Shown: piece by piece, positions 9,601 to 31,588 of the stretch
How positions within the stretch are numbered: the first letter of the stretch is position 1
Layout of the letters: every line of letters begins with the position of its first letter
Made by a program: the position numbers and the translations under genes
DNA from: Bacteroidaceae bacterium
GTDB lineage: Bacteria; Bacteroidota; Bacteroidia; Bacteroidales; Bacteroidaceae
Assembly: GCA_017548165.1 (NCBI GenBank)
Contig: JAFYMW010000002.1
Location: 1 to 47,118 of the forward strand
Direction of reading: 5' to 3'
Length of the DNA stretch: 47,118 bases
The notes under the pieces: model-generated
Databases searched by the model: none
What the model saw: the letters and a program-made list of their open reading frames with translations, nothing else
Told to the model about the DNA's origin: nothing

Positions 9601-9668
9601 AACGACCCAAAACGAGACTACCAAACACTGACAAACATAACACATAGACACCACCACACACTGACAAT

Positions 9669-10730
9669 ATGGAATTAGACTTGCAGCCCCTCGATCTCCC
9701 TTGTAGCACGGAGAGACCATTTATAATCACAGGCCCCTGCTCTGCCGAGACAGAGGATCAGGTAATGAACACCGCCAAGCAACTGGCAGGCAAGGGTTTT
9801 CACATCTTCCGTGCAGGTATATGGAAACCTCGTACCAAGCCTGGAGGTTTTGAAGGCAACGGAGAAAAAGCTCTGCCTTGGATGCAGATGGTGAAGAAGG
9901 AAACTGGTCTACTCACCGCCACCGAGGTGGCAACTCCCGAACATGTGGAACTGGCACTTAAATACGGCATCGATGTCCTGTGGATAGGTGCACGAACCAC
10001 CGCCAACCCCTTTGCCATGCAATCCCTTGCCGATGCACTTAAAGGCGTGGATGTGCCTGTATTGGTAAAGAACCCCGTAAACCCCGACCTCGAACTGTGG
10101 ATTGGTGCCTTGCAACGCCTCAATGGTGCCGGCATCAAGCGTTTGGGTGCCATACATCGTGGTTTCACCAGTTATGAGAAGAAACTATATCGCAATGTGC
10201 CCATGTGGCAGATTCCTATCGAGTTGCACCGTCGCATGCCCAACCTGCCCATCATCAACGACCCAAGCCACATAAGTGGTCGACGCGACCTCATCGCTCC
10301 TCTTTGCCAACAGGCTATGGACCTTGGCATGGACGGACTGATGGTGGAGAGCCATTGCGACCCCGACAAGGCCTGGAGCGATGCTTCACAACAGGTTACT
10401 CCCGATGTGCTCGACTATATCCTGTCCATGCTCACCATACGCGAAACCGTGGACCTTACCGCCTCGCTCAGCACCCTGCGCAAGGGCATTGACGAGATTG
10501 ACAATGAACTCATCGACCTGCTTGCCAAGCGCATGGGCATATCCCGCGAGATTGGTGCATACAAGCGCGACAATGGCATGACCATCGTGCAGACAAAGCG
10601 TTATAGCGAGATTCTGGACAAGCGTGCCGCACAGGGTGTGCTGAAGGGCATTGATGCCGAGTGTATCAAGAAAATCTTCGAATGCATACACGAGGAGAGC
10701 GTGCGCCAGCAGGTGGAACTTTTACGTTAA
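9669..10730 (+). CDS. Bifunctional DAHP synthase / chorismate mutase
   Basis: Catalyses the first step of the shikimate pathway (PEP plus erythrose-4-phosphate) and, in the tail, chorismate to prephenate. Residues 1 to about 255 are a type I-beta DAHP synthase of the KDPS-like group: GPCSAETEDQV, FRAGIWKPRTKPGGFEG, WIGARTTANPFAMQ, LVKNPVNPD and INDPSHISGRRD are in order and include the metal and PEP ligands. Residues 265-353 are an AroQ-type mutase, with LRKGIDEIDNELIDLLAKRM, ISREIGAYK and IHEESVRQQ. In this fusion type the mutase domain commonly lets prephenate feed back on the synthase. It sits between the Phe and Tyr branch genes, so all of the terminal pathway is here. Confidence 0.93.
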   Translation: MELDLQPLDLPCSTERPFIITGPCSAETEDQVMNTAKQLAGKGFHIFRAGIWKPRTKPGGFEGNGEKALPWMQMVKKETGLLTATEVATPEHVELALKYGIDVLWIGARTTANPFAMQSLADALKGVDVPVLVKNPVNPDLELWIGALQRLNGAGIKRLGAIHRGFTSYEKKLYRNVPMWQIPIELHRRMPNLPIINDPSHISGRRDLIAPLCQQAMDLGMDGLMVESHCDPDKAWSDASQQVTPDVLDYILSMLTIRETVDLTASLSTLRKGIDEIDNELIDLLAKRMGISREIGAYKRDNGMTIVQTKRYSEILDKRAAQGVLKGIDAECIKKIFECIHEESVRQQVELLR

Positions 10731-11625: not shown

Positions 11626-12111
11626 ATGAAACGCATTGGCCTCCTGTCAGACACGCACGGTTATTGGGACGAACGCTATGCACGCTATTTAGCCGAGTGC
11701 GACGAGATATGGCATGCCGGGGACATAGGTTCTCCGGAGTTGGCCAAGCGCCTGAACGACATCCGCCCACTGAAGGCCGTCTACGGCAATATCGACGGAG
11801 GAGAATTGCGGCGCACCTACACCGACATACTCCGTTGGCAATGCGAGGAAACCCGTATAATGATGACGCACATAGGCGGTTATCCTGGCAAATACGATCC
11901 CAGGATTCGCAAGCAACTCCTTGCCGACCCTCCCGACCTTTTCATCAGCGGACATAGCCACATACTGAAGGTGCAATACGCCCCTGCCCTCTCCTGCCTC
12001 CACATCAACCCCGGAGCAGCAGGTCTGCAAGGATGGCACACCGTACGCACCCTTGTCCGCTTCACCATCGACGGGAAACAGTTCAAGGACCTGGAAGTGA
12101 TAGAGATATGA
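11626..12111 (+). CDS. YfcE/MJ0936-type metallophosphoesterase
   Basis: A compact 161-residue phosphodiesterase of the calcineurin-like superfamily. All metal-site blocks can be read: LLSDTHGY, HAGDIGS, YGNIDGG, MTHIGGYPGKYD and SGHSHILK, supplying the Asp, Asn and His ligands of two metals. The physiological substrate of this family is unclear. It begins 19 bases after tyrA, and its TGA overlaps the ATG of the DUF554 gene (ATGA), so it is part of the same transcript as the next two genes. Confidence 0.9.
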   Translation: MKRIGLLSDTHGYWDERYARYLAECDEIWHAGDIGSPELAKRLNDIRPLKAVYGNIDGGELRRTYTDILRWQCEETRIMMTHIGGYPGKYDPRIRKQLLADPPDLFISGHSHILKVQYAPALSCLHINPGAAGLQGWHTVRTLVRFTIDGKQFKDLEVIEI

Positions 12112-12821
12112 TCGGCACCATAGTCAACACCTGCACAATCATCATCGGCAGCATTGCCGGAGCAGCACTGAAGCAACGCATCCGCCCTCAGTGGCAAGGT
12201 GTGCTATACACCGCCATGGGACTTGCCTCGCTTGCCCTCGGCTTCAATGCCGTATGCAACAATATGCCCAAGAGCCAATACCCCGTGCTCTTCGTTGTCT
12301 CCCTGGCTTTAGGCTCGCTTCTTGGCACCATGCTCAATCTGTCCGGAAGGTTCGATGCCCTTGTTGACAAACTAAAGAAAGGCAAGCCCTCACAACCCGG
12401 CAAGAACCTGGCACAGGGCCTCTCAACCGGAATACTACTCTATTGCATCGGCACATTTAGCATCCTGGGCCCCATAAACAGTGCCCTCCTGGGCGATGAG
12501 ACCTTCCTGCTCACCAATGCTACCCTGGACCTCGTCACCAGTGCCGTACTTGCCGCCACCTACGGCTATGGCATGGCATGGGCTGCACCCGTGCTGTTCT
12601 GCTGGCAAGGCTCGTGGTATATGATAGCCAAACTCTTTGGCGACATCATTCCCCAGGAGATGATATGCGAAATGAGCATCGTTGGCGGAACCCTGATTGC
12701 CGCATCGGGCCTGGGCATTTTGGGCATCAAGGATTGCAAAACGCTGAACCTTCTGCCCTCGCTCTTCGTACCCGTTGTGTTCTTTATACTGAAATCCCTA
12801 CTTCAATCATTTGGCTTATGA
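12108..12821 (+). CDS. DUF554 family membrane protein
   Basis: A 237-residue integral membrane protein of the DUF554 (YdfK-like) family, function unknown, with about six or seven hydrophobic segments. MIGTIVNTCTIIIGSIAGAA at the N-terminus and the glycine-rich FSILGPINSALLGD in the middle are characteristic. The frame stays open upstream to 12033, but the ATG at 12108 is chosen because it overlaps the preceding stop by four bases (ATGA) and gives the conserved N-terminus. The end overlaps trmO in the same way. Confidence 0.85.
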   Translation: MIGTIVNTCTIIIGSIAGAALKQRIRPQWQGVLYTAMGLASLALGFNAVCNNMPKSQYPVLFVVSLALGSLLGTMLNLSGRFDALVDKLKKGKPSQPGKNLAQGLSTGILLYCIGTFSILGPINSALLGDETFLLTNATLDLVTSAVLAATYGYGMAWAAPVLFCWQGSWYMIAKLFGDIIPQEMICEMSIVGGTLIAASGLGILGIKDCKTLNLLPSLFVPVVFFILKSLLQSFGL

Positions 12822-19824: not shown

Positions 19825-20421
19825 CTACACATTATAAATCCCGTTCATCACACAATAGATAATCACATCTGCAAGGGAGCGTGCTCCGAGTTTTTCCATG
19901 ATGTTCTTTCGGTGAGTGATAACGGTAGTAATACTGATGTTCAGTTTGTCTGCCACCTCCTTGTTTATGCACCCTTGGCATAGCAATAGGGCCACTTCCA
20001 CCTCCCTTGTTGAAAGCAGTGGTTCTGGTTTTTCCTTGGACATAGGATGTGGTGCAATGTTAGCATGAGCGCTATGTGCCGACATACCAGCATGGTGGCC
20101 CCTGCGTTGCAATGCCACCAGATCACGCACCAAAGCCGCTTCGCCCTGACAAACATTCAGCGTTGCCACACCGTTGATAATCATGTCACCCCCCACCATC
20201 ACTATGCTACGACCGCTTCTGTCACGGAAGTATGCAGTATGCTCAAAGTATATTCTTGACGACACAAAATAATGGACAAATTCCGCCTCGCCCTTTGAGA
20301 GCAGTTCCTCAAAGGACTCACAAGTGACAATCTCAGCCACAGGAATCAATTCATCCAATATTCTCTCCAGGCCCATACAAGCCAGAATATTGGAATCTAT
20401 TATGGCAATCTTGAATTGCAT
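19825..20421 (-). CDS. LuxR/NarL-type regulator with degenerate receiver
   Basis: About 198 residues. The C-terminal 65 are a clear LuxR-type HTH: LLSTREVEVALLLCQGCINK followed by EVADKLNISITTVITHRKNI and MEKLGARS. The N-terminal part begins FKIAIIDSNILACMGLERIL like a response-regulator receiver, but where the phospho-acceptor Asp is expected the sequence reads YFVSSRIYF. The acidic pocket is reduced to one Asp, so phosphorylation control is unlikely. In-frame starts exist at 20448, 20430 and 20421; I use the last because the receiver-like fold begins there. It sits between the flippase and the glycosyltransferase genes and may control them. Confidence 0.8.
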   Translation of the reverse strand: MQFKIAIIDSNILACMGLERILDELIPVAEIVTCESFEELLSKGEAEFVHYFVSSRIYFEHTAYFRDRSGRSIVMVGGDMIINGVATLNVCQGEAALVRDLVALQRRGHHAGMSAHSAHANIAPHPMSKEKPEPLLSTREVEVALLLCQGCINKEVADKLNISITTVITHRKNIMEKLGARSLADVIIYCVMNGIYNV

Positions 20422-20491
20422 ATTTCGCATCTCTGTAAACTCACCCATTAAGTCCTTCGGTTTCCATTTTCACCTTTCACCTTTCCGTTCT

Positions 20492-22330
20492 CTACAGCTG
20501 CTGCATATCATACAACCTCTTGTAGTATCCGTTCTTTGCAATGAGCTCGTCGTGACCACCACGCTCCACTATCTCGCCCTCGTAAAGAACGAAGATTTCA
20601 TCTGCATTCTTGATTGTTGACAGACGATGCGCTATGGCTATGGTGGTGCGACTCTTCATCAGACGCTCCAATGCCTCCTGAACCAAGCGCTCCGACTCGG
20701 TATCAAGTGCCGATGTAGCCTCATCCAGTACAAGTATCGGAGGATTCTTCAAGATGGCACGCGCTATGCTCACTCGCTGACGCTGACCACCAGACAAGCG
20801 ACCACCACGGTCACCAATCATCGTGTCGTATCCATTCTCGCTCTCCATAATGAAATCATGAGCATTGGCAATCTTTGCTGCCTCGATGACCTGCTCCATA
20901 GTGGCATTCTCCACACCGAAGGTTATGTTGTTGTAGAAAGTATCGTTAAAGAGAATGGCCTCCTGATTCACATTGCCAATCAAGGCACGCAAATCACGTA
21001 TACGCACACTTTTAATATCCTTACCGTCAATGAGTATCTGACCCTCGCAGACATCGTGATACCTGGGAATAAGATCCACCAGCGTAGACTTACCACTACC
21101 CGACTGTCCCACCAATGCTATGGTCTTGCCCTTGGGGATGGTAAGGTTAATGCTCTTCAACACATCCCTACCACCCTCTTGATAACGGAAACCAACATTG
21201 CGCAACTCCACCTCTTTCTCAAACTCGGTCAGTTCCTCTGGCTTTGCCAGTTCCTTTATAAGATTCTCTGCTTTCAGGATGAAGTCGATGCGGTCCATCG
21301 AAGCCAATCCATGAGGAATCTGATACGAAGCCCTGGACAAGTCCTTCAATGGATTTATCACGCTATACAGAATCACCATGTAGAAGATGAATGTAGACGC
21401 ATCTATCATGCTGGTACCGTTCAGGATTAGCCAGCCGCCAAACCAAAGCACAATAACGATTATAGATGTGCCCAGAAACTCCGACATGGGATGTGCAGCA
21501 TTCTGTCTCACCACCATCTCTGTCATCTCTCTGCGGTACTCGTCGTTCTTCTCATAGAAACGCTGCGACATCTTCTTCTCCGCAATGAAAGCCTTTATGA
21601 TGCGCAAACCACCCAATGTCTCGTCGAGATGAGCAATGATGTCACCCCATCTGCTCTGCACACTGGCCGACTGACTCTTGAGCTTACGGCTCACCTTGCC
21701 CATCACCCAACCTGCCAACGGAGCAACGATAAAGACAAAGAGAGTCAGCTGCCAACTTACACTAAACAAAGTCACGAAACACACCACTATGGCTATAGGC
21801 TGACGTATAATCATATCAACGGACGACATCACCGCCGTCTCCACACACTGCACATCAGCACTCATACGGGCAATGATATCACCTTTCCTCTCTTCTGAGA
21901 AGAAACTCAAAGGCAAGGCCAACACCTTATTATATAATTGTGTCCTTATATCCTTCACCACACCGGTTCTCAAGGGCACCATCACAGCACTTGAGGCAAA
22001 GTATCCAAATGTCTTTATGCCCGTCATCAGCACCAGCGCAACACCCATTATCACCAATGTCAAGAATGCGCCGTGCTCGTTAATCAGTTCTTGCACAAAG
22101 GCATAACCATTGTTTACAACCGTTTCCTTGCTTAGCGTATCCCAAGTCCACTCCTTGTAAGTATACACCGTCTGATCTATCTTGAACAAGATATTCAGTA
22201 TAGGTATCAGCACCACAAAGGAGAACACATTCATCCATTGCGAGAAAAAGTTCAGCAATACCGAACCTACCAAATATTTTCGATAGGGCTTCAAATATCG
22301 CCCCATTATCTTTAAGAAATGCTTCAACAT
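20492..22330 (-). CDS. MsbA-like ABC transporter (fused permease and ATPase)
   Basis: A 612-residue half-transporter that dimerises in the inner membrane, probably flipping lipid A or a lipid-linked glycan. Residues 1 to about 320 hold six membrane segments of the type 1 exporter fold. The ATPase domain has Walker A (GQSGSGKSTLVDLI), the Q-loop, LSGGQRQRVSIARAIL, Walker B (ILVLDEATSALD) and the switch His in AIAHRLSTIK. It is first in a five-gene minus-strand run and has a good promoter at 22369-22400. Lipid A flipping is likely given the acyltransferase and glycan genes nearby, but other lipid cargo is possible. Confidence 0.9.
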   Translation of the reverse strand: MLKHFLKIMGRYLKPYRKYLVGSVLLNFFSQWMNVFSFVVLIPILNILFKIDQTVYTYKEWTWDTLSKETVVNNGYAFVQELINEHGAFLTLVIMGVALVLMTGIKTFGYFASSAVMVPLRTGVVKDIRTQLYNKVLALPLSFFSEERKGDIIARMSADVQCVETAVMSSVDMIIRQPIAIVVCFVTLFSVSWQLTLFVFIVAPLAGWVMGKVSRKLKSQSASVQSRWGDIIAHLDETLGGLRIIKAFIAEKKMSQRFYEKNDEYRREMTEMVVRQNAAHPMSEFLGTSIIVIVLWFGGWLILNGTSMIDASTFIFYMVILYSVINPLKDLSRASYQIPHGLASMDRIDFILKAENLIKELAKPEELTEFEKEVELRNVGFRYQEGGRDVLKSINLTIPKGKTIALVGQSGSGKSTLVDLIPRYHDVCEGQILIDGKDIKSVRIRDLRALIGNVNQEAILFNDTFYNNITFGVENATMEQVIEAAKIANAHDFIMESENGYDTMIGDRGGRLSGGQRQRVSIARAILKNPPILVLDEATSALDTESERLVQEALERLMKSRTTIAIAHRLSTIKNADEIFVLYEGEIVERGGHDELIAKNGYYKRLYDMQQL

Positions 22331-22368
22331 ATCCTTTTTATAATACCAAATTAATGATTATATTTCTG

Positions 22369-22400
22369 CAAAGATACAATTAAGCGAGCGAAAAGGCAAA
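22369..22400 (-). promoter_or_regulatory. Promoter of MsbA-like/glycan operon
   Basis: Minus strand: TATCTTTG at 22369-22376 and TTTG at 22397-22400, separated by 20 bases, both perfect matches to the Bacteroidetes consensus. The start of transcription would be near 22362, about 32 bases before the ATG. Confidence 0.75.
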
Positions 22401-22710
22401 TATATTTCATATTTTCATAGCACGATGGGCTTTTATAGACATATTGCCATCTCATAACTTATACCTTCTGTTTATATACGACAGAAATATATTATAGCAG
22501 GTCTTATTCTAACCCATAATGATTTTTCTTTTAAAAATATAAACAAACGAGCGAGAAGCATGAAATTTACTTCAATGTTTATTGATCTATATTCGAGGTT
22601 TACCGCAATGATACGAAAATCGCACTAAATGGGCAAATCCCAACCATAGAATTCTTTATTTTGGAATATATTTAATATATTTGCGTTAGAATTAAATATA
22701 TTTCGGAATA
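22401..22710. other. AT-rich intergenic boundary of the defence island
   Basis: No credible coding frame on either strand. Apart from the msbA-side promoter and the -7 box at 22676-22683 I see no tRNA, terminator or direct repeat that would mark an integration site. The shift to AT-rich sequence begins here. Confidence 0.5.
22676..22683 (+). promoter_or_regulatory. -7 box for the first defence-island operon
   Basis: TATATTTG, a perfect -7 match, lies 28 bases upstream of the first HTH gene. A TTTG occurs at 22660-22663, but 12 bases is closer than the normal spacing. Confidence 0.5.
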
Positions 22711-22911
22711 ATGGCAAATCTTAATCGTATCAAAGTAGTACTCGTTGAACAACAAAAGACAGGCAAATGGCTGGCAGAACAAATGGGCAAATCCGCCTGC
22801 ACAGTCAGCAAATGGTGTAGCAACTCCAGTCAGCCAGACTTGGCGACATTGGATAAAATCGCCACTCTTTTAAATGTGGATAGACGAGAATTGATTGCAC
22901 CTTCAAAATAA
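22711..22911 (+). CDS. Small Cro/C1-type HTH regulator (paralogue 1)
   Basis: A 66-residue single-domain DNA-binding protein. WLAEQMGKSACTVSKWCSN is the helix-turn-helix, followed by LATLDKIATLLNVDRREL, the usual fourth and fifth helices. It closely resembles the protein at 25907-26110: both share NRIKVVLV, KWL, TVSKWC and SQP, more than half identical by eye. Small regulators of this type often sit first in Bacteroidetes restriction operons and set the timing of nuclease expression. It precedes a nuclease gene by 65 bases, so control of that gene and itself is likely but inferred. Confidence 0.88.
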   Translation: MANLNRIKVVLVEQQKTGKWLAEQMGKSACTVSKWCSNSSQPDLATLDKIATLLNVDRRELIAPSK

Positions 22912-22976
22912 CTACAAACACATAAAATAGAGGCACGTCACATGAAGTAATTTCAAGCAAGTAAATATTTTAAATT

Positions 22977-24131
22977 ATGCAGATAATTGAGACTATAGGC
23001 AATCAAAATTTAATGAATAGAGAAAAAACGCTATTTCTATGTTCCAAGATGACGCCTATAGGACTGTATGGCAAAGTGTTCAAGTGGACGGATAGCCTAA
23101 CAGATAAAGACTGCATTGCTTGCTTCAATTCTACCGACATGGAGTCGGAAGTGCTGAAGGCGCTACTCGTTGCCAAAGTCCCTGCCATTTTGTTTGTAAT
23201 GAACCGCTTCACTGACGGAAACAACATTCAGATAGAGCGGGCACTACAAGAAAACAGAATGCTTATTGTTGTTCTGAGGCGTAATGAACCAAGAGGAAAA
23301 GGAGCTATGCCCAGACTGAGAAATGAGTATGTATTGTCGATTTGCCAGCATGTCATTTGTGGTTATGTCAATAAGAATGGCAGCGTGTTCCCCTTGTTGG
23401 CAGGGCGAAAAGATGTAGTAAATCTTGTTGATGAAAATACATGTTCTAAGGTAGCAGAACAAAACAATCAACATGAACGATGGACTGTGGCACATGACAA
23501 GATGCTGCTTAGGATGTTTTACAATGACATGGGAATCCATGCCATCCATAAGCAACTGCAAAGAACATATACTGCTATCTATTCACGCCTTCACTCCATA
23601 ACTTTATCAGAAGAGTTGCTAAAAGGACGAGAGTTTGAGGATTATGTGCTCAGCCTGTTTAATCTTCAGGAAAATGACGAACTCATTTTGCAAGAATGGC
23701 AAGGTGACAAATCGTATGGCAAGGTTAAGGCTGAAAATAACAGGAATCCCGATTTCGTGTTCCGATACAGGCAAAACGAGTTTGCCGTAGAATGTAAGTG
23801 GCGCGAGAAACTAAACCGCGATTTGGGCAAGGACTTGTTTCCTATAAAAAGGATTGAGAATTATAAGCATTTCTCCGAAGTTCGGCACATGACAGTAACA
23901 ATCATTCTTGGTGTTGGCGGTGAACCATGCAACCCTGAACTTCTTTACAAAATTCCGTTAAATGAAATCGCTCCTATCATCTCTGGAAATCAGTCGATAG
24001 CTAATTATCTACATCCTGCATCTTCTTTTGAAGTCTCTATGTTCTTACGACAAGAGGAGAACACCAAGGAAAGAGCATATACACTTAGCGAGAAGCGCGA
24101 GAAATGCACTAAAGATGTTCAATACGATTGA
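22977..24131 (+). CDS. SLOG-like, Myb-like HTH, PD-(D/E)XK nuclease fusion
   Basis: A 384-residue protein with three regions. Residues 17-155 resemble a DprA/SLOG Rossmann domain: KTLFLCSKMTPIGLY, CIACFNSTDMESEVLKALL (in place of the usual GxxS/E surface), VPAILFVMNRF and MLIVVLRR. Residues 168-206 fit a Myb/trihelix DNA-binding unit, with W169, DMGIHAIHKQL and RTYTAIYSRL. Residues 216-280 form a restriction-endonuclease core: KGREFEDYVLSLF, PD at 258-259 and VECK with Glu272 and Lys274. The last 60 residues are unassigned. The order suggests ligand sensing, DNA binding and cutting in one chain. I do not recall a named system with this arrangement. Expressed after a small HTH gene. Confidence 0.72.
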   Translation: MQIIETIGNQNLMNREKTLFLCSKMTPIGLYGKVFKWTDSLTDKDCIACFNSTDMESEVLKALLVAKVPAILFVMNRFTDGNNIQIERALQENRMLIVVLRRNEPRGKGAMPRLRNEYVLSICQHVICGYVNKNGSVFPLLAGRKDVVNLVDENTCSKVAEQNNQHERWTVAHDKMLLRMFYNDMGIHAIHKQLQRTYTAIYSRLHSITLSEELLKGREFEDYVLSLFNLQENDELILQEWQGDKSYGKVKAENNRNPDFVFRYRQNEFAVECKWREKLNRDLGKDLFPIKRIENYKHFSEVRHMTVTIILGVGGEPCNPELLYKIPLNEIAPIISGNQSIANYLHPASSFEVSMFLRQEENTKERAYTLSEKREKCTKDVQYD

Positions 24132-24253
24132 ACAAACTGTATTTATTGAACAAAAACGGTATTTTGGAAGAATAAAAGTGAAGAAAACGCTATTAAAACG
24201 ATGTATACTTAAAAAAATGCAGATATAGTGTCTTTATTTTGATGGGAAATGAT

Positions 24254-24261
24254 TAATTTTG
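24254..24261 (+). promoter_or_regulatory. -7 box ahead of the ATPase/DUF4435 pair
   Basis: TAATTTTG matches the -7 consensus 66 bases before the ATPase ATG at 24327, with TTTG at 24238-24241 (12 bases apart, shorter than normal). It implies that this pair is transcribed separately from the nuclease gene, whose stop is 195 bases upstream of that ATG. Confidence 0.45.
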
Positions 24262-24326
24262 CATATGTGTCATTCATATTGTAGGTGATATATCGGAAAT
24301 AACGAACAGATTAAAGAATAGGCTTT

Positions 24327-25052
24327 ATGTCGTACTCAAAAATTGAAGAAATCACAACTAACCTCTGGGGTAAGTATAACGTTCGCTTTTCAGCCAATGC
24401 GGATGTGAATATTATCGTTGGTATAAATGGTAGTGGCAAGACTACGTTGCTGAACGAAATATACAAATTGGCCCTTGAAAATTCCAGTGATAAAAAACAA
24501 GTAGTTTTTGTGCCATCTATAGATAATATAGCTATGCGCGATAAGCGCAAAGTGGCTAATGCACTGACACAGGATCTTGAATTTTACATGTTCGACATGA
24601 AAACAGGCCCGTCAATGATGTATTATCGTATGTCCATGATTGATGCTAAAGCGGAAAAACAAACAGAGATGAAGGCACGTATTGGAGATTTCTGTTCTAT
24701 TATAAATTCTTTGTTTAAAGAAACTGGAAAGCACATTGAAATCGAAGGTAATAAATTTAATGTAGTTTCTAAGGGGCAGATTATTCCTATTGAAGCTTTG
24801 TCCTCTGGTGAAAAACAAATGCTTTTGATTTTACTTCGTGTATTTCTTATGGACGGGAAAGAAGCATTCGTACTGCTTGATGAACCAGAAAACTCGCTTG
24901 ACATCAGCTGGCAATATGAGTTGATTAATACACTTGTGAAACTCAATCCTAATGCGCAGTACTTTATTACTACACATTCACCAAGTATCTTTGGTGACGG
25001 ATGGGGCGATAAGATTATTTACATGGAGGACATTACTACTCCAATTAAGTAA
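24327..25052 (+). CDS. Compact ABC-type ATPase of a PARIS-like pair (AriA-like)
   Basis: A 241-residue ATPase of the AAA_15/ABC class. Walker A is GINGSGKT at 32-39, the signature LSSGEKQ at 158-164, Walker B AFVLLDEPE with Asp185-Glu186, the D-loop SLD at 190-192 and the switch His217 in ITTHSP. All catalytic parts are therefore present although the chain is short. There is no membrane segment or transporter partner. The next gene, six bases on, is a DUF4435 protein; the ATPase plus DUF4435 pairing is the architecture of the PARIS anti-phage system, where the ATPase senses an anti-restriction protein and releases the nuclease. Whether this pair has the same trigger is unknown. Confidence 0.8.
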   Translation: MSYSKIEEITTNLWGKYNVRFSANADVNIIVGINGSGKTTLLNEIYKLALENSSDKKQVVFVPSIDNIAMRDKRKVANALTQDLEFYMFDMKTGPSMMYYRMSMIDAKAEKQTEMKARIGDFCSIINSLFKETGKHIEIEGNKFNVVSKGQIIPIEALSSGEKQMLLILLRVFLMDGKEAFVLLDEPENSLDISWQYELINTLVKLNPNAQYFITTHSPSIFGDGWGDKIIYMEDITTPIK

Positions 25053-25058
25053 TGTGAT

Positions 25059-25904
25059 ATGAACAGAATCGAAGAACAAGCACGTTACTTTCGTAATATT
25101 CCTTTGCGCGACAGAAGCATCAAGGCTGTTGTACATTTGGAGGATGCTGAGGATAAACTTTTCTGGAACAACCAACTCCAGAAGGCCTTCTCAGGAAAGT
25201 ACCTTTTTATTCCATACTCGAAGAATCAGAAAGGTAATGACGTACATGGTTGTGAACAATGTCTTCGCTACAAAGCATATCTTACAAAGACTTTCTTCAT
25301 TTGTATAGATAGTGATTTGCGACAATTAAAAGGAGAAGAAGGATTGACGGCTGAATCCCTCATTGCTCAGACATATGCCTATTCATGGGAAAATCACTTT
25401 TGTGAGGCAGAACATCTGCAAGAACGCTTTGAGGAATTAGTTCCAAATTCCGACTTCGATTTTCAGGTTTTCTTGCGAAAACTTTCAGCTGTTATATATA
25501 AACCTCTTCTCTATCTTGTACAATATAGCCAAAGTTCAGAGTTGAATCAACAATGGAACATTACCCGATTCAACTCATGTCTGCCATTACAACCCTCAAG
25601 AGATGAATTAGCAGACAATGGTAGCGCTTATATTGAACGGGTGAAACTGTTATTTGAAGCTGCTCTTCAGAATCTTCAACAACCTGAGAATATGGTAAAC
25701 GAGCATCTTGATGATGCCAATGCCTATCTTCATATTCAAGGTCATCAGCTGTATAAACTTGTACTCCATATTGGAACAATGCTTTGTAAAAGAACAAGGG
25801 TGGCATTTAAGACAGATATTCTTGATAAGTCCCTTCATACAGACGGATACCTGGAGATAAACAGTGTGCAAGCTGATCTCAGTAAAATAACTTCAAAAGA
25901 ATAA
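25059..25904 (+). CDS. DUF4435 TOPRIM-like effector (AriB-like)
   Basis: A 281-residue DUF4435 protein, predicted nuclease effector of the preceding ATPase. The TOPRIM-like features are Glu28 in VVHLEDAEDKLFW and the DxD at 84-86 in FFICIDSDLRQL, spaced as in DUF4435. AYSWENHFCEAEHL around 105-118 is the further conserved block of the family. In PARIS the corresponding protein becomes a tRNA-cutting nuclease once released from the ATPase, causing translation arrest; that role is inferred here. It ends two bases before the second small HTH gene, which is therefore probably part of the same transcript. Confidence 0.8.
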   Translation: MNRIEEQARYFRNIPLRDRSIKAVVHLEDAEDKLFWNNQLQKAFSGKYLFIPYSKNQKGNDVHGCEQCLRYKAYLTKTFFICIDSDLRQLKGEEGLTAESLIAQTYAYSWENHFCEAEHLQERFEELVPNSDFDFQVFLRKLSAVIYKPLLYLVQYSQSSELNQQWNITRFNSCLPLQPSRDELADNGSAYIERVKLLFEAALQNLQQPENMVNEHLDDANAYLHIQGHQLYKLVLHIGTMLCKRTRVAFKTDILDKSLHTDGYLEINSVQADLSKITSKE

Positions 25905-25906
25905 AG

Positions 25907-26110
25907 ATGGAAAATCGGATAAAAGTTGTACTCGTTGATAAAAAGAGAACCAATAAATGGCTTTCCGAACAGTTGGGGTGTGCGCCTACCACTGTAAGCA
26001 AATGGTGCACCAATGTTTCTCAACCACCTATGGAGACATTTGTCAAGATTGCAGAACTCCTTGAAGTCGATATAAATGAACTCGTTCGCCTCGAACGTAA
26101 ATCACAGTGA
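25907..26110 (+). CDS. Small Cro/C1-type HTH regulator (paralogue 2)
   Basis: A 67-residue protein with HTH segment WLSEQLGCAPTTVSKWCTN and LEVDINELV at the end, a close paralogue of the protein at 22711-22911 down to shared DNA (GTACTCGTTGA in both). Only two bases separate it from the DUF4435 stop, suggesting coupled translation. It may regulate the pair upstream, the methylase block downstream, or both. A role as a restriction-modification controller is plausible from position; target sites are not visible to me. Confidence 0.87.
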   Translation: MENRIKVVLVDKKRTNKWLSEQLGCAPTTVSKWCTNVSQPPMETFVKIAELLEVDINELVRLERKSQ

Positions 26111-26152
26111 GTTCGAAATTAGATAGTTGAACCATGATTTTTTAATACGATA

Positions 26153-26791
26153 ATGGATAAAAATCAAGATATACCCCGTATCCGAAAAGGTGATGCCTTT
26201 GTTCAAATGGAGCCGCATCCTCTCGTTTTCATGGAGATAAACGAGGTGGAAGGGAATGCAGGAAATAAAGATTTCTGCATTGTAACGTGGTATTTGCTTG
26301 ACGAAAAGGGGCTCAATGCTCAGCGTCGATTCCCAATGGTTGCAGTTGATGGTGGATTCTGTAACTTCGAGCCGATTCCTCGCAAACTTCTTAAAGATGC
26401 TAAAAACCTGATGCATCAATACGATGCTGATGTGAAACTGTTAACAGTTAAGGCAGAAGCAAAATCACTATACAATAATTATACTCGTAAACTGATAGAG
26501 TTGCTCCCTGACGCTGAAAACAGACAGGCAATTGCTCTGCAAATTGAAAAGAAGATTATCACTAACGAATGGATTGACTGTACAGAAGATAATTACTGGG
26601 TGGAAGAAGATCTTGAACAGAATGACAAGTACTTTACACTTGTTTGTCTTACAATAGAATCATACGATGACAAAAAAGACCATACTATAGCAGAGCAATA
26701 TTTATACTTGTACAAGAACTGTCCGTATAGTTGGAATATTCTTGCAAATAGTGGTGCTAAGTATATGGTGGTTGAGAAGCCGAAGAAGTAA
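26153..26791 (+). CDS. Unrecognised 212-residue protein in defence island
   Basis: I do not recognise the family. The protein is soluble, without signal peptide or membrane segment. Residues 1-75 look beta-rich (GDAFVQMEPHPLVFMEINEV, CIVTWYLLDEKG), residues 80-145 are charged and helical (LLKDAKNLMHQYDADVKLL), and the last third is mixed with acidic stretches (WIDCTEDNYWVEEDLEQN). No nuclease, ATPase or HTH motif is evident. It lies 42 bases after the second HTH gene and 42 before the decayed GHKL ATPase, in the same direction, so it probably belonged to a system containing that ATPase. AT-rich codon use matches its neighbours. Confidence 0.72.
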   Translation: MDKNQDIPRIRKGDAFVQMEPHPLVFMEINEVEGNAGNKDFCIVTWYLLDEKGLNAQRRFPMVAVDGGFCNFEPIPRKLLKDAKNLMHQYDADVKLLTVKAEAKSLYNNYTRKLIELLPDAENRQAIALQIEKKIITNEWIDCTEDNYWVEEDLEQNDKYFTLVCLTIESYDDKKDHTIAEQYLYLYKNCPYSWNILANSGAKYMVVEKPKK

Positions 26792-26833
26792 ATTGTATTG
26801 ATGTGATTGAAAGAATAACGAGTACAATAACGT

Positions 26834-27346
26834 ATGAAAAAAATAGAAAACCCTCCTATAGCAAATTATCTTATGGGGTCCATGCGATACATGGGATATT
26901 CTTTTGAAGATGCGGTAGCTGATGTTATTGATAATAGTATTAGCGCAAGATGTCATGTCGTAAAAGTATTATTCTCTAAAGAACCGTCTAATTTATATGT
27001 GGGTATATTAGATGATGGTAAGGGTATCTTTTTGTCTAAACGTTCTGATAACACCTGGGGACAATTCGCCAACCAATGAATGGCTCTAAAGGGAAACAAC
27101 ATTTCATTGAAATCACACCATATAGACTACCATTTGTTTCCGATATGAGTGAAAAAGAAAAAAAAACTCATCGGAGGAGATGATAAAATGAACCGTATGC
27201 AAGGGTATTACATATATCGAGGTAAAGGATTAATCAAATATGGCACATGGTTCGGAACACCTAGACATGAAGTGTCCAAATATGGTCGTGTTAAAGTTGA
27301 TATTCCAAACAGCATGGACGAAATAAGAAAGGAAAGAGAAAAGTAA
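26834..27346 (+). pseudogene. Decayed GHKL (Hsp90-like) ATPase gene
   Basis: Three pieces of one ATPase gene remain. Residues from 26834 give GYSFEDAVADVIDNSISARC and VGILDDGKGI, the N box and G1 box of GHKL ATPases, then stop at 27079. A short frame from 27076 gives ITPYRLPFVSDMSEKEKK. After an A9 run at 27158-27166 the continuation is in another frame, with NRMQGYYIYRGKGLIKYGTW and KYGRVKVDIPNSMDEI, the middle-region pattern of the same family. So most of the ATPase core and all of the C-terminus are missing, and there is an apparent frameshift in the A run. Intact relatives run to several hundred residues and usually sit with a DNA methylase and Z1 or nuclease genes. The gene is not functional as read. 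Confidence 0.75.
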
Positions 27347-27348
27347 TA

Positions 27349-29202
27349 ATGAGATATTTAGGAAGTAAAGAAAGTTTGACCGATTCTATAAAGGAACTCT
27401 TGCAAGAGCATAACCTGCTTCAAAGAAATTTTGTTTTCTTTGATGCATTTTGTGGTATGGGTTCTGTAGCAGATAGTCTGAAGTCTATCTATGACCATAT
27501 TATCATTAATGACTCTTTAAAATGCTCAACGTATTTTACAAGAGGGAAATTGTATGCAAATAGATGTACATTTGACAGACTAGGTTTTGACCCTTTTGAG
27601 TTCCTCAATAATGGAAATAATACGCTCCATGGATTCATATACCAGAATTATTCTCCTGGTGGTTCAGACCGAATGTATTTTTCTGAAGAAAATGCAGGCC
27701 GTATAGATTATTTCCGCAGGCAAATTGAAGAATGGAAAGAACAAGGTCAAATAACTGAAGAGGAGTATGTGTATCTTTTAGCATGTCTGTTAGAATCTGT
27801 TTCTGATGTGTCTAATACAGCTGGTGTATATGGAGCATATCTAAAACATTGGGATAAGCGAGCATTAAAGCCCATTATCTTCAGCAAAATAGATTCTAAC
27901 GAGGGTGTTTGCGAGAATATTGAAAGCCAGAATGATAAAATTGAGCAGATCATTTCAGATATAGAATGTGACATTTTATATCTTGACCCGCCGTACACCC
28001 AGAATCAATATGGCACACAATACCATTTGTTGGAAACATTGATACTAAATGATAACCCTCCAATTAGTAGAGTAACTGGCTCACGACCGACTACTCCAAT
28101 GCGTTCTAACTGGTCAAAGATGTATCATGCTCACATTCTGTTTGAGAAGGTGGTGGCAGAGACAAAAGCTTCTCATATTATCCTGAGTTATAACAATGAT
28201 GGATTTATGTCGAAAGACTACATTGAGAAGACGCTCAAGCGATTTGGGATAGAAGAAACATACGATTGTAAAACAATAGATTACAAGAAGTACAACAACA
28301 CGAAATGTCAAGGTGCTGATGGACATCAAGAGTATCTGTTTTACATACAGAAAAAGCCTGCTGAAGAGGTAATAGTTCAATCTCCTCTTAATTACACGGG
28401 AAGTAAGACAAAAATGGTTCCTATCATTAAGCAGTATCTGCCTAATCATCCGTTACACACTTTTATTGACGCTTTTGGTGGCGGCTTCAATGTGGGTATA
28501 AATATTGATGCGGAGCGTATTGTCTACAACGATATTAATCCTTTTGTTGAGGGACTAATTAAGTCATTCACTACTGATACATACGAGTATTTACTATATG
28601 TTTCCAAGTTAATTCAGAAATACGAATTAGCACCAAATAGTAGGGAGGGATATGTAGCATTGAGAGATAAATACAATAGCACTCCAATCCCTAAGCGAGA
28701 CTCTCGTATGCTGTATACTCTTATTCTATATGGTTTCCAGCAGCAAATACGTTTTAATACAAATCATGGCTTTAACAACCCAATAGGTTCCCGTTGGTTT
28801 AACGAGTGTCTTCTTTCAAAGTTTATTACATTTGCGAGATGCTCTAAGGCAAAAAGGGTGGAATATCTTAATGTAAGTTTCGACAGGTTGGAAGATCAGA
28901 TAACGCCAGATACATTTGTCTATGCGGACCCTCCATATCGCTCAACACTTGGTGTATATAACGATGGGAAAAGAGGGTTTGAAGGATGGACAATAGACCA
29001 TGAACAACGACTATGTACCTTCTTGGACTTGATTCATCAGCGTGGAGCACAATTCATGTTTTCATACGTTTTGCAGGTTGAAGGTTTCTATAATGAAGAC
29101 GTTGCTAATTGGGCAGAGAGAAATAATTATCATGTAATTGACATAGAAATACCCCAAGGCAGATATAACAACCGTCGCGAGGTGTTAATAACAAATTATT
29201 GA
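27349..29202 (+). CDS. Tandem two-domain D12-class DNA adenine methylase
   Basis: A 617-residue DNA N6-adenine methyltransferase built from two complete D12 (Dam-like) units. Unit 1 has RYLGSKESL at the N-terminus, motif I FDAFCGMGSVA at 31-41 and DPPY at 213-216. Unit 2 has LNYTGSKTKMV, FIDAFGGGFNVG at 372-383 and DPPY at 527-530. Two units in one chain are known from M.FokI, where each half methylates one strand of an asymmetric site, so a type IIS-like target is likely. The HNH endonuclease gene follows two bases after the stop, and the pseudogene ends two bases before the ATG. Confidence 0.92.
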   Translation: MRYLGSKESLTDSIKELLQEHNLLQRNFVFFDAFCGMGSVADSLKSIYDHIIINDSLKCSTYFTRGKLYANRCTFDRLGFDPFEFLNNGNNTLHGFIYQNYSPGGSDRMYFSEENAGRIDYFRRQIEEWKEQGQITEEEYVYLLACLLESVSDVSNTAGVYGAYLKHWDKRALKPIIFSKIDSNEGVCENIESQNDKIEQIISDIECDILYLDPPYTQNQYGTQYHLLETLILNDNPPISRVTGSRPTTPMRSNWSKMYHAHILFEKVVAETKASHIILSYNNDGFMSKDYIEKTLKRFGIEETYDCKTIDYKKYNNTKCQGADGHQEYLFYIQKKPAEEVIVQSPLNYTGSKTKMVPIIKQYLPNHPLHTFIDAFGGGFNVGINIDAERIVYNDINPFVEGLIKSFTTDTYEYLLYVSKLIQKYELAPNSREGYVALRDKYNSTPIPKRDSRMLYTLILYGFQQQIRFNTNHGFNNPIGSRWFNECLLSKFITFARCSKAKRVEYLNVSFDRLEDQITPDTFVYADPPYRSTLGVYNDGKRGFEGWTIDHEQRLCTFLDLIHQRGAQFMFSYVLQVEGFYNEDVANWAERNNYHVIDIEIPQGRYNNRREVLITNY

Positions 29203-29204
29203 AT

Positions 29205-30386
29205 ATGGAAGCAACAATAACATACAGACCAGATGCTCAGAAAACGCCAGGACTTTATGACAGGCTCCTGACAAGAGAAGTTCTTTTGGACATTTGTCAA
29301 CATGTTACAGGTCAGAGCAGATTCCGTGTGGTAAAAGACCGCTCAACTTATAACCGAGGACGTCTGTTGCTTGTGGAATATGAAGGGATGATTAATTACG
29401 TGTCTCTTTCTGAAGCGAGTATTGAAGGGCGCAATTCCAGTTTGCAAAGTGTTCCAACAGCTATCAATATGTTCTATGCAGATCAACGTCTGAACAAACG
29501 TCTCTGTTACTATTTTATACCTCATATTGGAAACGCATTTACTGATTATCATCTTTTCGTTTATCGCCTACTGATGACCGCTGGCATAGATTTTTTGAAT
29601 ATTGGAAGCTATTATCAGCAATCCGTATTACCATATAGAAACATCGATGATTTGATTTTTGACAGAAGAGAAAATCAAACTTCAAATTCGTCCAACAACT
29701 CATCATATGTATCAAAGACTAGTGACAAGATTCAGATTTATGCCAAGACCTTTGGGGCCAGCAAATATGAATCAACACTCCTTGCTGTCGCAATATCACA
29801 TATCGCAGACAGACCTATAGATTTGTTCAATATCTGCGAACAAGACTTAACGAGACTACCTCAAGCCTCTATGAACACGATAGAAAGCTTAGGCAATATC
29901 TCAATGCACTACACATCGCTTTTCTTAGACAAGCGTGAGTATTTACAACAATCGGACAGAACAGAGTTGCGCTCTGCATCCTATTTGTACAACCTCTTCA
30001 ATAGACTTGGTTCTAAGAAATGTGCATTATGTGGGTGTGAAATTCCTGAAATCATTCAAGGTGCACATATATGGGGCGTAGCCCAAATATCCAGAACGAC
30101 CGAACTTGACGATGACACAAAATTCAACCATGCTGTGAGTGGCCATAACGGATTATGGCTGTGTCAGAATCACCATAAGTTATTTGATTCAAATATCATC
30201 ATGTTAGATAATGATGGATATGTGAGGATTAAAGATAGTTTGGTAACAGACAATGTGATGTTTATCAGAAATACAACGTTCAAGCCTTCGCTAGATGTTC
30301 GTGTTATGAGTGACGAGTTCAGAGGTTATTTGGCAAGGAGAAACGAGAACGTTGATTTGGCTCATTCTCACAGATTGGTAGTATGA
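29205..30386 (+). CDS. HNH restriction endonuclease
   Basis: A 393-residue endonuclease predicted to cut unmethylated DNA. The C-terminal quarter holds an HNH_2-type site: CALCGCEIPEIIQGAHIW gives the CxxC pair and first His, and GHNGLWLCQNHHKLFD the remaining catalytic and zinc residues. The N-terminal 270 residues are not recognised and should contain target recognition. A TTG at 29199 is in frame, but the ATG at 29205 is preferred as the first proper codon. Two bases follow the methylase stop, and the end overlaps the next methylase gene (ATGA), which binds the three into one restriction-modification unit. Confidence 0.87.
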   Translation: MEATITYRPDAQKTPGLYDRLLTREVLLDICQHVTGQSRFRVVKDRSTYNRGRLLLVEYEGMINYVSLSEASIEGRNSSLQSVPTAINMFYADQRLNKRLCYYFIPHIGNAFTDYHLFVYRLLMTAGIDFLNIGSYYQQSVLPYRNIDDLIFDRRENQTSNSSNNSSYVSKTSDKIQIYAKTFGASKYESTLLAVAISHIADRPIDLFNICEQDLTRLPQASMNTIESLGNISMHYTSLFLDKREYLQQSDRTELRSASYLYNLFNRLGSKKCALCGCEIPEIIQGAHIWGVAQISRTTELDDDTKFNHAVSGHNGLWLCQNHHKLFDSNIIMLDNDGYVRIKDSLVTDNVMFIRNTTFKPSLDVRVMSDEFRGYLARRNENVDLAHSHRLVV

Positions 30387-31588
30387 TGATAAAAGAGCCA
30401 TATTATTCTACTCAAAACAATGATTTCACTCTTTATCAGGGTGATTCTTTTGAGGTTTTACACTACATCAAAGGATCTTTCGATATGATATTTGCTGACC
30501 CTCCCTATTTCCTCTCAACTGGCAATGGCAAGGTAAATGTGAATGGGCAATACATAAAGTTTGATAAAGGCCAATGGGATCGGGTTCGTTCAAGAGATGA
30601 AAAAGATTCCTTCAACAGGAAATGGCTTGAACCTTGCAAAAAGCTGCTAAAGTCGAATGGAACCATCTGGATTTGTGGAACGTATCACAATATCTTTTCT
30701 GTTGAGAAATGCTTGGATGAATTAGGCTTTAAGATTATCAACATGGTTGTTTGGCAGAAGCCTGATCCTCCTGTGACTTTATCAGATAAACGGTTCAACT
30801 TTTGTGCAGAATATCTTATTTGGGCTACACGGCGTGGCTGTAAAGATTATACCTTCAACCGAGATGCTCTAAAAGCGGTAAATGGTGGTGTATACATGCC
30901 GGACGTTTGGAAACTGTCTGCTGCAAGTGCTTGGGAGAAACTCCAAGGGAAACATCCTACTCAAAAGCCATTGCGACTGCTTTATCGTGCCATCTTGGCA
31001 TCTACTAATAAGGGAGATATAATACTTGACCCATTTGCTGGTAGCTCAACGACAGGAATTGCTGCAAACCTGTTAGGCAGGAACTTTGTAGGGATAGATG
31101 AAAGCGAAGAATTTCTGGATTTAAGTATCAAAAGAAGGGAATACATAAGAGAAGATTCTCATTTCTTTGAGATGAAACAAAGAATGGAAGAAGACCCAGA
31201 ACAAGTGATGGTGCTAGTAAATCACGCTCGTCCTGAATTGAAAGCAAAGATGCTTAAAACGGGTATTTGTTATGTAAGAATAGGAGATTCAAAAGGTTCC
31301 GTCCTTGTCACATATGGCTTTGAACGGATGCAATATGTTCTACTCCATACAAATGGCGAGGATTGCCACTTATTCAGATTGAAATCGAAAGGTACTTTCA
31401 AAATATGGGTAAAAGAGACATTGGAAGGATTGGGGTTTCATCCAGAGCATTCTCCGTACTATGCTGTATTCCATTTTGACAATACACGAGAAATCAGTTT
31501 CCCTAAGATGCCAAATTTGAAGAATAAAATCAATACTTATCGTGCGAGAATTCGCCCATTAGAGGATTTCTTCGAAGAGAATATATAG
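30383..31588 (+). CDS. Beta-class MboII-like DNA methyltransferase
   Basis: A 401-residue site-specific methyltransferase. DPPY comes first (39-42, in FDMIFADPPYFL) and the SAM motif later (DPFAGSSTTG, 215-224), the order of the beta class, and the GKHPTQKPLRLL block between them is typical. DPPY suggests N6-adenine, though N4-cytosine enzymes are close relatives. Residues 245-401 are an extra domain not needed for catalysis and possibly for target contact. MboII-type enzymes act on asymmetric sites. With the tandem methylase before it, the locus has three methylase domains for one HNH enzyme. The start overlaps the HNH stop; ATG at 30386 is an alternative. Confidence 0.9.
   Translation: MMIKEPYYSTQNNDFTLYQGDSFEVLHYIKGSFDMIFADPPYFLSTGNGKVNVNGQYIKFDKGQWDRVRSRDEKDSFNRKWLEPCKKLLKSNGTIWICGTYHNIFSVEKCLDELGFKIINMVVWQKPDPPVTLSDKRFNFCAEYLIWATRRGCKDYTFNRDALKAVNGGVYMPDVWKLSAASAWEKLQGKHPTQKPLRLLYRAILASTNKGDIILDPFAGSSTTGIAANLLGRNFVGIDESEEFLDLSIKRREYIREDSHFFEMKQRMEEDPEQVMVLVNHARPELKAKMLKTGICYVRIGDSKGSVLVTYGFERMQYVLLHTNGEDCHLFRLKSKGTFKIWVKETLEGLGFHPEHSPYYAVFHFDNTREISFPKMPNLKNKINTYRARIRPLEDFFEENI

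Follow-up and report, generated by a model that had tools for sequence, protein, structure and literature searches.

Can2 and Card1 combine a CARF domain, which binds cyclic oligoadenylate, with a PD-(D/E)XK nuclease, and Thoeris proteins of the ThsA type carry a SLOG sensor. DprA-like and SLOG domains have a common fold. Fusions of SLOG domains with nucleases may be mentioned in the survey of nucleotide-centric conflict systems that Burroughs and others published in 2015. SLOG is spelt out as SMF/DprA-LOG in the abstract of PMC11204291. In the DprA-PRTase defence system and in ShosTA-type pairs, a DprA-like protein is proposed in PMC9122126 to sense phage DNA on behalf of an effector; there DprA is paired with a phosphoribosyltransferase effector, whereas the protein described here, NUC, is a single gene carrying a nuclease. 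No DprA-like/PD-(D/E)XK fusion was recognised by title or abstract among the literature matches listed.

NUC is encoded in the window, the whole stretch of 47,118 nucleotides analysed here. It comprises the following parts, where A2 is the alignment of 19 full-length NUC rows (window included), A3 is the joint N-domain profile of 27 rows (10 NUC and 17 free-standing proteins) and A4 also includes distant nuclease-only proteins.

22977–24131, + strand: NUC, a DprA-like/trihelix/PD-(D/E)XK protein of 384 aa with an ATG start (open reading frame, relatives, purifying selection).
22977–23441, + strand: compact DprA-like Rossmann domain, NUC residues 1–155 (hhalign chain to DprA; 3uqz is the top PDB match with A3).
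23469–23612, + strand: central trihelix, about residues 165–212, a putative DNA-binding module (matches the C-terminal trihelix of relatives).
23625–23966, + strand: PD-(D/E)XK domain, about residues 217–330 (alignments A2 and A4; sub-threshold Pfam matches).

The original prediction of three parts in one 384-residue chain was borne out, and the closest relatives add a fourth, a trihelix at the C-terminus; this profile-based domain architecture is very likely correct. Identity to the window protein ranges from 45 to 94% among the 18 full-length relatives in A2. For the seven pairs with finite dS among eight compared, overall dN/dS was 0.08–0.15, and finite per-domain values were 0.00–0.22, indicating purifying selection in all three domains; the open reading frame at 22977–24131 is therefore a real, selected gene. 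The original prediction also named no known system with this arrangement, and indeed the protein matched no model in Pfam (E <= 1), PADLOC (E <= 0.1; PADLOC-DB of 2023) or NCBIfam (E <= 1). PHROGs gave four weak matches, the best being phrog_323 (D5-like regulator; E 0.0067) over the trihelix. A PDB search with the single sequence returned one chance-level match (pyridoxal kinase, E 0.73). That NUC is an undescribed system is plausible.

The N-terminal domain is related to DprA through intermediates. Free-standing proteins matching NUC residues 1–155 occur in the same genus and order, and the NUC N-domain profile matches this compact DprA-like family at 99.9% (hhalign, E 4.8e-33). The free-standing family in turn matches 28 canonical DprA sequences at 94.5% (E 8.3e-8, 138 columns), against 2.4% for the best of 100 column-shuffled controls, and pooling the free-standing and NUC rows gave 92.5% (E 4.8e-7). 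Compared with DprA directly, the NUC profile reached only 0.3%, which is not significant, so the relationship of NUC to DprA is transitive. The predicted DprA/SLOG-like Rossmann domain is thus upheld for DprA, and the profile check proposed for it succeeded by way of the free-standing family but failed in direct comparison. Searched against the PDB, A3 found S. pneumoniae DprA (SpDprA, 3uqz) as the best chain (E 0.0015; runner-up E 0.55). The Pfam DprA model, PF02481, has no match to NUC at E <= 1; in six free-standing relatives it scored below its cut-off in four (19.9–24.7 bits vs 29.6) and had no match in two.

According to PMC4066776, R115 of SpDprA shows total conservation and takes part in ssDNA binding. 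In the alignment of A3 with 3uqz this residue is faced by NUC K24, and SpDprA R208 N209 by an RN pair. Position 24 is K in all ten NUC rows of A3 and in 18 of the 19 rows of A2 (R in L041), and it varies among the free-standing relatives, with R in only 8/17. The RN pair is invariant in 27/27 rows of A3; one row of A2, L021, has W for R115 of NUC. The basic patch of DprA is partly kept, the NUC residues opposite SpDprA K119, K144 and K202 being non-basic (counted by hand). NUC resembles DprA/Smf in the order of its Rossmann core, in a basic residue (K24) at the R115 position, in the RN motif and in a GN...L start, but differs in lacking a PF02481 match, in consisting of the Rossmann core only, in a changed SGxxxGID loop and in its fusion to a trihelix and a nuclease.

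The fold common to DprA-like and SLOG domains bears on the reading of the original prediction, a ligand-gated DNA cutter whose Rossmann domain would switch the nuclease on when occupied by a ligand derived from nucleotides (compare the SLOG domain of ThsA and cADPR isomers). NUC has the sensor-then-nuclease order of CARF nucleases, with a Rossmann-like N-terminal sensor and a C-terminal PD-(D/E)XK domain, and Can2 was the top PDB chain for the full-length NUC profile, although its E value of 0.41 is not significant (obelin, at E 2.3, was the sole other match). Unlike Can2 and Card1, NUC matches neither CARF nor any other Pfam family at E <= 1, and has a trihelix between its domains. All 17 free-standing relatives retain the glycine of the SGxxxGID loop, which all 10 NUC rows replace by F or C. 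Nor did the neighbourhood survey, from which a recurrent partner might have emerged, reveal one: among adjacent genes at the 19 full-length NUC loci, no family, whether of messenger synthases or of another kind, appears at more than three, which also separates NUC from Thoeris systems with their messenger-making enzyme. This comparison used genes from a longest-ORF script, which may miss small genes, several loci end at contig ends, one 32-locus cluster consisted of NUC and its domain relatives themselves, and L024 (G027) was left out. With no recurrent partner next to the gene, the loop glycine lost and an ssDNA-binding DprA as the nearest relative found, gating by a messenger is not supported; we regard this alternative as weakened and unlikely.

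The nuclease domain carries the predicted catalytic residues. E221, D244, K245, P258, D259, E272, C273 and K274 are invariant in all 19 full-length rows of A2, so that the PD-(D/E)XK core of D259, E272 and K274 stands as it was proposed; in A4, E and K are present in 21/21 rows and D in 20/21. Pfam searches on these 21 members returned 11 families, all below cut-off, of which four are restriction or PD-(D/E)XK nucleases: REase-ARP (6/21 members), PDDEXK_11 (5), TnsA_N (4; best E 0.0017) and PDDEXK_15 (1). TnsA is itself a PD-(D/E)XK nuclease. The other seven have unrelated names at E 0.019–0.41, for example Fn3-III_PB4 (2 members, E 0.019) and DUF427 (2). The nuclease profile had no match in the PDB.

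Nuclease-only proteins of Bacteroidota match the NUC nuclease at 99.9% (hhalign, E 4e-37). These relatives (L047, L048, L053 and others) have the nuclease domain in common with NUC, but in place of its DprA-like domain and trihelix 16/20 have a hydrophobic N-terminal part, probably a membrane anchor (judged by eye). The union of a DprA-like domain with this nuclease is therefore a special architecture. Probably membrane-anchored nucleases with the NUC-type PD-(D/E)XK domain were seen at L047, L048, L053–L055 and L160, that of L053 also having a weak TerB match (E 0.11).

Between the DprA-like domain and the nuclease of NUC lies the trihelix, and here the original prediction held in part. The central trihelix matches the C-terminal trihelix of relatives at 94.8% (E 5e-8), whereas 200 shuffles reached 5.95% at most, which supports the trihelix as a repeated module. 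Its Myb-like character is not established: Pfam gave nothing for the central copy at E <= 5, and of three C-terminal copies one had no match and two had weak ones (E 0.016–0.16), mostly to HTH models. Myb_DNA-binding was a weak match to one of the three (E 0.06, 13 residues), and the first match for the L035 copy was a death-domain model.

The second trihelix follows the nuclease in 10 of 26 distinct NUC copies, namely 7/19 rows of A2 together with L117 and L120 (found by script) and L124 (by eye). The closest relatives are four-part proteins of 431 aa with this C-terminal trihelix, which the window copy is without.

24105–24131, + strand: junction at which the C-terminal trihelix of L035 and L036 is missing here (blastn ends, DNA comparison).

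DNA homology to L035 and to L036 ends in both cases at 24105, 222 bases before AriA. Relative to the four-part proteins of its nearest kin, NUC of the window is thus shortened to three parts, and forms of this kind are common.

A restriction context exists for the free-standing relatives of the N-domain. The free-standing set comprises 28 loci and 30 proteins, 17 of them shorter than 180 residues and 13 longer; L158, in which no N-domain was found at E 1e-5, is left out when neighbours are counted. Homologues of a type IIG restriction enzyme lie within about 6 kb of 13/17 short proteins, aligning over about 790 residues or more in 11 (including L030, which supplied the type IIG and helicase queries) and partly in L144 and L145. 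A PLD-SNF2 helicase homologue lies near 10/17 short proteins; the PADLOC types of the query pair are HKD+Snf2 and REase_MTase_IIG. By contrast, no type IIG homologue was found near the 13 longer proteins or at any of the 19 NUC loci, some of which end at contig ends. These compact proteins of Bacteroidales belong to the same domain family as NUC residues 1–155 but are without a nuclease, and the type IIG neighbours of the short ones link the DprA-like domain to restriction independently of NUC.

All three homologues, free-standing DprA-like protein, PLD-SNF2 helicase and type IIG enzyme, were seen together at ten loci (L030, L032, L034, L141, L142, L147, L148, L152, L156 and L157). Such loci resemble restriction systems of several genes in which one subunit is DprA-like. 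An NYN-like protein (VDGFNLYFG or VDGYNFYYG) was also noticed by eye at L142, L148 and L156. At L143 and L149, two different DprA-like proteins of about 200 and 390 aa flank an XRE-type-HTH-like gene (by eye).

Could NUC itself be an orphan restriction enzyme, a modification-dependent or sequence-specific nuclease of type IV or type II-like character, with the DprA-like part serving only as a scaffold for structure or dimerisation? The gene has no regular methylase companion, the trihelices could give specificity, and restriction-modification genes lie near NUC in the window and at L035. Yet constraint on the N-domain is similar to that on the nuclease (finite dN/dS 0.05–0.19 for both), the N-domain has invariant polar residues, and Mrr_cat is absent from the Pfam matches listed for the 21 nuclease members and from those of NUC. 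We consider this reading slightly less likely than gating by a messenger.

NUC is rare, and its carriers are Bacteroidales of the gut and rumen. Of 139 genus genomes searched, 19 carry it at full length (in two pieces in G492), as do 2/393 genomes of an order sample and 1/395, the window's own, of a phylum sample; G458 has an extra NUC fragment at a contig end, beyond the 19. A scan of genome_contigs with one sequence, which reaches close relatives only, gave 16 loci: four nuclease-only matches and 12 full-length relatives, all labelled as Bacteroidales (Prevotella, Prevotellaceae, Bacteroidaceae, Alloprevotella and Paludibacteraceae), mostly of rumen and gut. The 26 distinct copies considered here are the 19 of A2, window included, and 7 of 13 further copies, the other six being identical to A2 members; L022 and L127 look frame-broken. 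The plasmid and phage collections held no match at E 1e-3, and none was found in viral_contigs by peptide patterns.

Such patchiness within one genus, at differing chromosomal sites, argues against an accessory nuclease of recombination or repair, or a competence-related factor, with no part in defence. The relationship to DprA and the many copies that lie, judged by eye, among housekeeping-looking genes (glt/asn/car, pdxT, trpS and others) favour such a role, and NUC would then be an addition to the canonical DprA that the window's genome carries separately (G000:C87). We judge it improbable. That canonical gene led us to reject NUC as a replacement for DprA.

The surroundings of NUC in the window include an HTH gene upstream and a defence system downstream.

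22656–22711, + strand: 21-nt inverted repeat (86%, 14-nt spacer; repeat search), a probable operator whose last base is also the first of the HTH1 start codon.
22711–22911, + strand: HTH1, a 66-aa Cro/C1-type HTH protein (Pfam HTH_3 1.5e-7, HTH_26 1e-6).
24327–25904, + strand: neighbouring PARIS pair, AriA at 24327–25052 (241 aa) and AriB at 25059–25904 (281 aa) (PADLOC 1.5e-111 and 2.2e-116, near full length).

The original prediction had given NUC its own HTH regulator. HTH1 does precede NUC in 3/26 distinct copies (window, L035 and L036), but it is not specific to NUC. L035 has two HTH copies (9735–9935 and 12224–12433), each 98.5% identical to HTH1; one stands before NUC and has a diverged upstream region, the other precedes a type I methylase and has the operator as it is in the window, and a nearly identical repeat also precedes the HTH of L036. 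Because HTH1 accompanies so few copies and its counterpart stands before a methylase, an HTH dedicated to NUC was rejected; the HTH and its probable operator are a portable control module. A second HTH in the window (25907–26110), after PARIS, is 60% identical to HTH1 over 58 residues.

The PARIS system looks complete, but NUC also occurs without PARIS and was rejected as a regular part of it; no relatives of the window's AriA and AriB were found at the other loci L019–L050 (tblastn, E 1e-4). Defence genes lie directly downstream of NUC at three loci: PARIS in the window, HEC-01A/B at L020 and an HEC-02A/AriA-like ATPase at L021. At 1.1–1.2 kb downstream are a type I methylase (L035) and a match to the PDC-M13 model (L036). 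Further along the window, an 81-aa open reading frame at 26834–27079 with a partial HATPase_c_3 match (PADLOC MzaB-like, 4e-9) is apparently a remnant, and 27349–31588 holds a probable type II restriction-modification cluster of a 617-aa protein with two D12 methylase stretches, an HNH protein and a CcrM-like N6_N4 methylase.

The junctions around HTH1 and NUC are sharp. Within 20001–30000, the region searched, DNA homology apart from HTH paralogues spans 22616–24105 for L036 and 22652–24105 for L035. At L044, two very similar NUDIX-like genes flank NUC (9615–9989 and 11884–12297; by eye), which looks like an insertion accompanied by a duplication. These junctions, the variable sites, the L044 arrangement and three loci near glt/asn/car-like genes would suit a selfish gene of the homing kind, spreading by means of its nuclease. 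Homing endonucleases, however, are known for holding to a single site, and the sites of NUC differ so widely that this is very improbable.

NUC is probably a one-gene defence against foreign DNA, nameless so far. From its sequence relationships and distribution, we think it rather probable that it is an accessory nuclease of the defence type. The fuller reading, a solitary, DNA-sensing, accessory and horizontally spread one-gene restriction-type nuclease, is the one we tentatively prefer, at somewhat short of even confidence, and that its trigger would be DNA rather than a messenger is held a shade more tentatively again. A solitary gene needs a trigger of its own, and the DprA-type domain offers single-stranded DNA or recombination intermediates. 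Counting against the preferred reading are the failed direct comparison with DprA, the incomplete basic patch, the variability of position 24 in free-standing relatives, the W of L021 in the RN pair, the housekeeping-like surroundings of many copies and the absence of matches in the phage, plasmid and viral collections.

We propose that the DprA-like N-domain would recognise a state typical of invading or replicating foreign DNA, in the form of single-stranded regions or intermediates of recombination. Double-stranded DNA would be held by one trihelix or two, and the PD-(D/E)XK domain would then cut. As no methylase regularly stands beside NUC, selectivity would come from the DNA structure sensed by the N-domain. 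In the window, L035 and L036, the HTH module with its probable operator may limit NUC expression.

DprA is known as a mediator of recombination that takes up ssDNA entering the cell. More speculatively, and on balance doubtfully, a domain of this type may have been repurposed to aim a nuclease, giving single-gene immunity directed by the single-stranded or recombining state of DNA and a condensed counterpart of the SNF2 helicase/type IIG loci. If this were true, a restriction system of one gene would be triggered by the state of the DNA, and not by its sequence, its methylation or a messenger, and a role would suggest itself for the free-standing DprA-like proteins found near SNF2/type IIG restriction loci.
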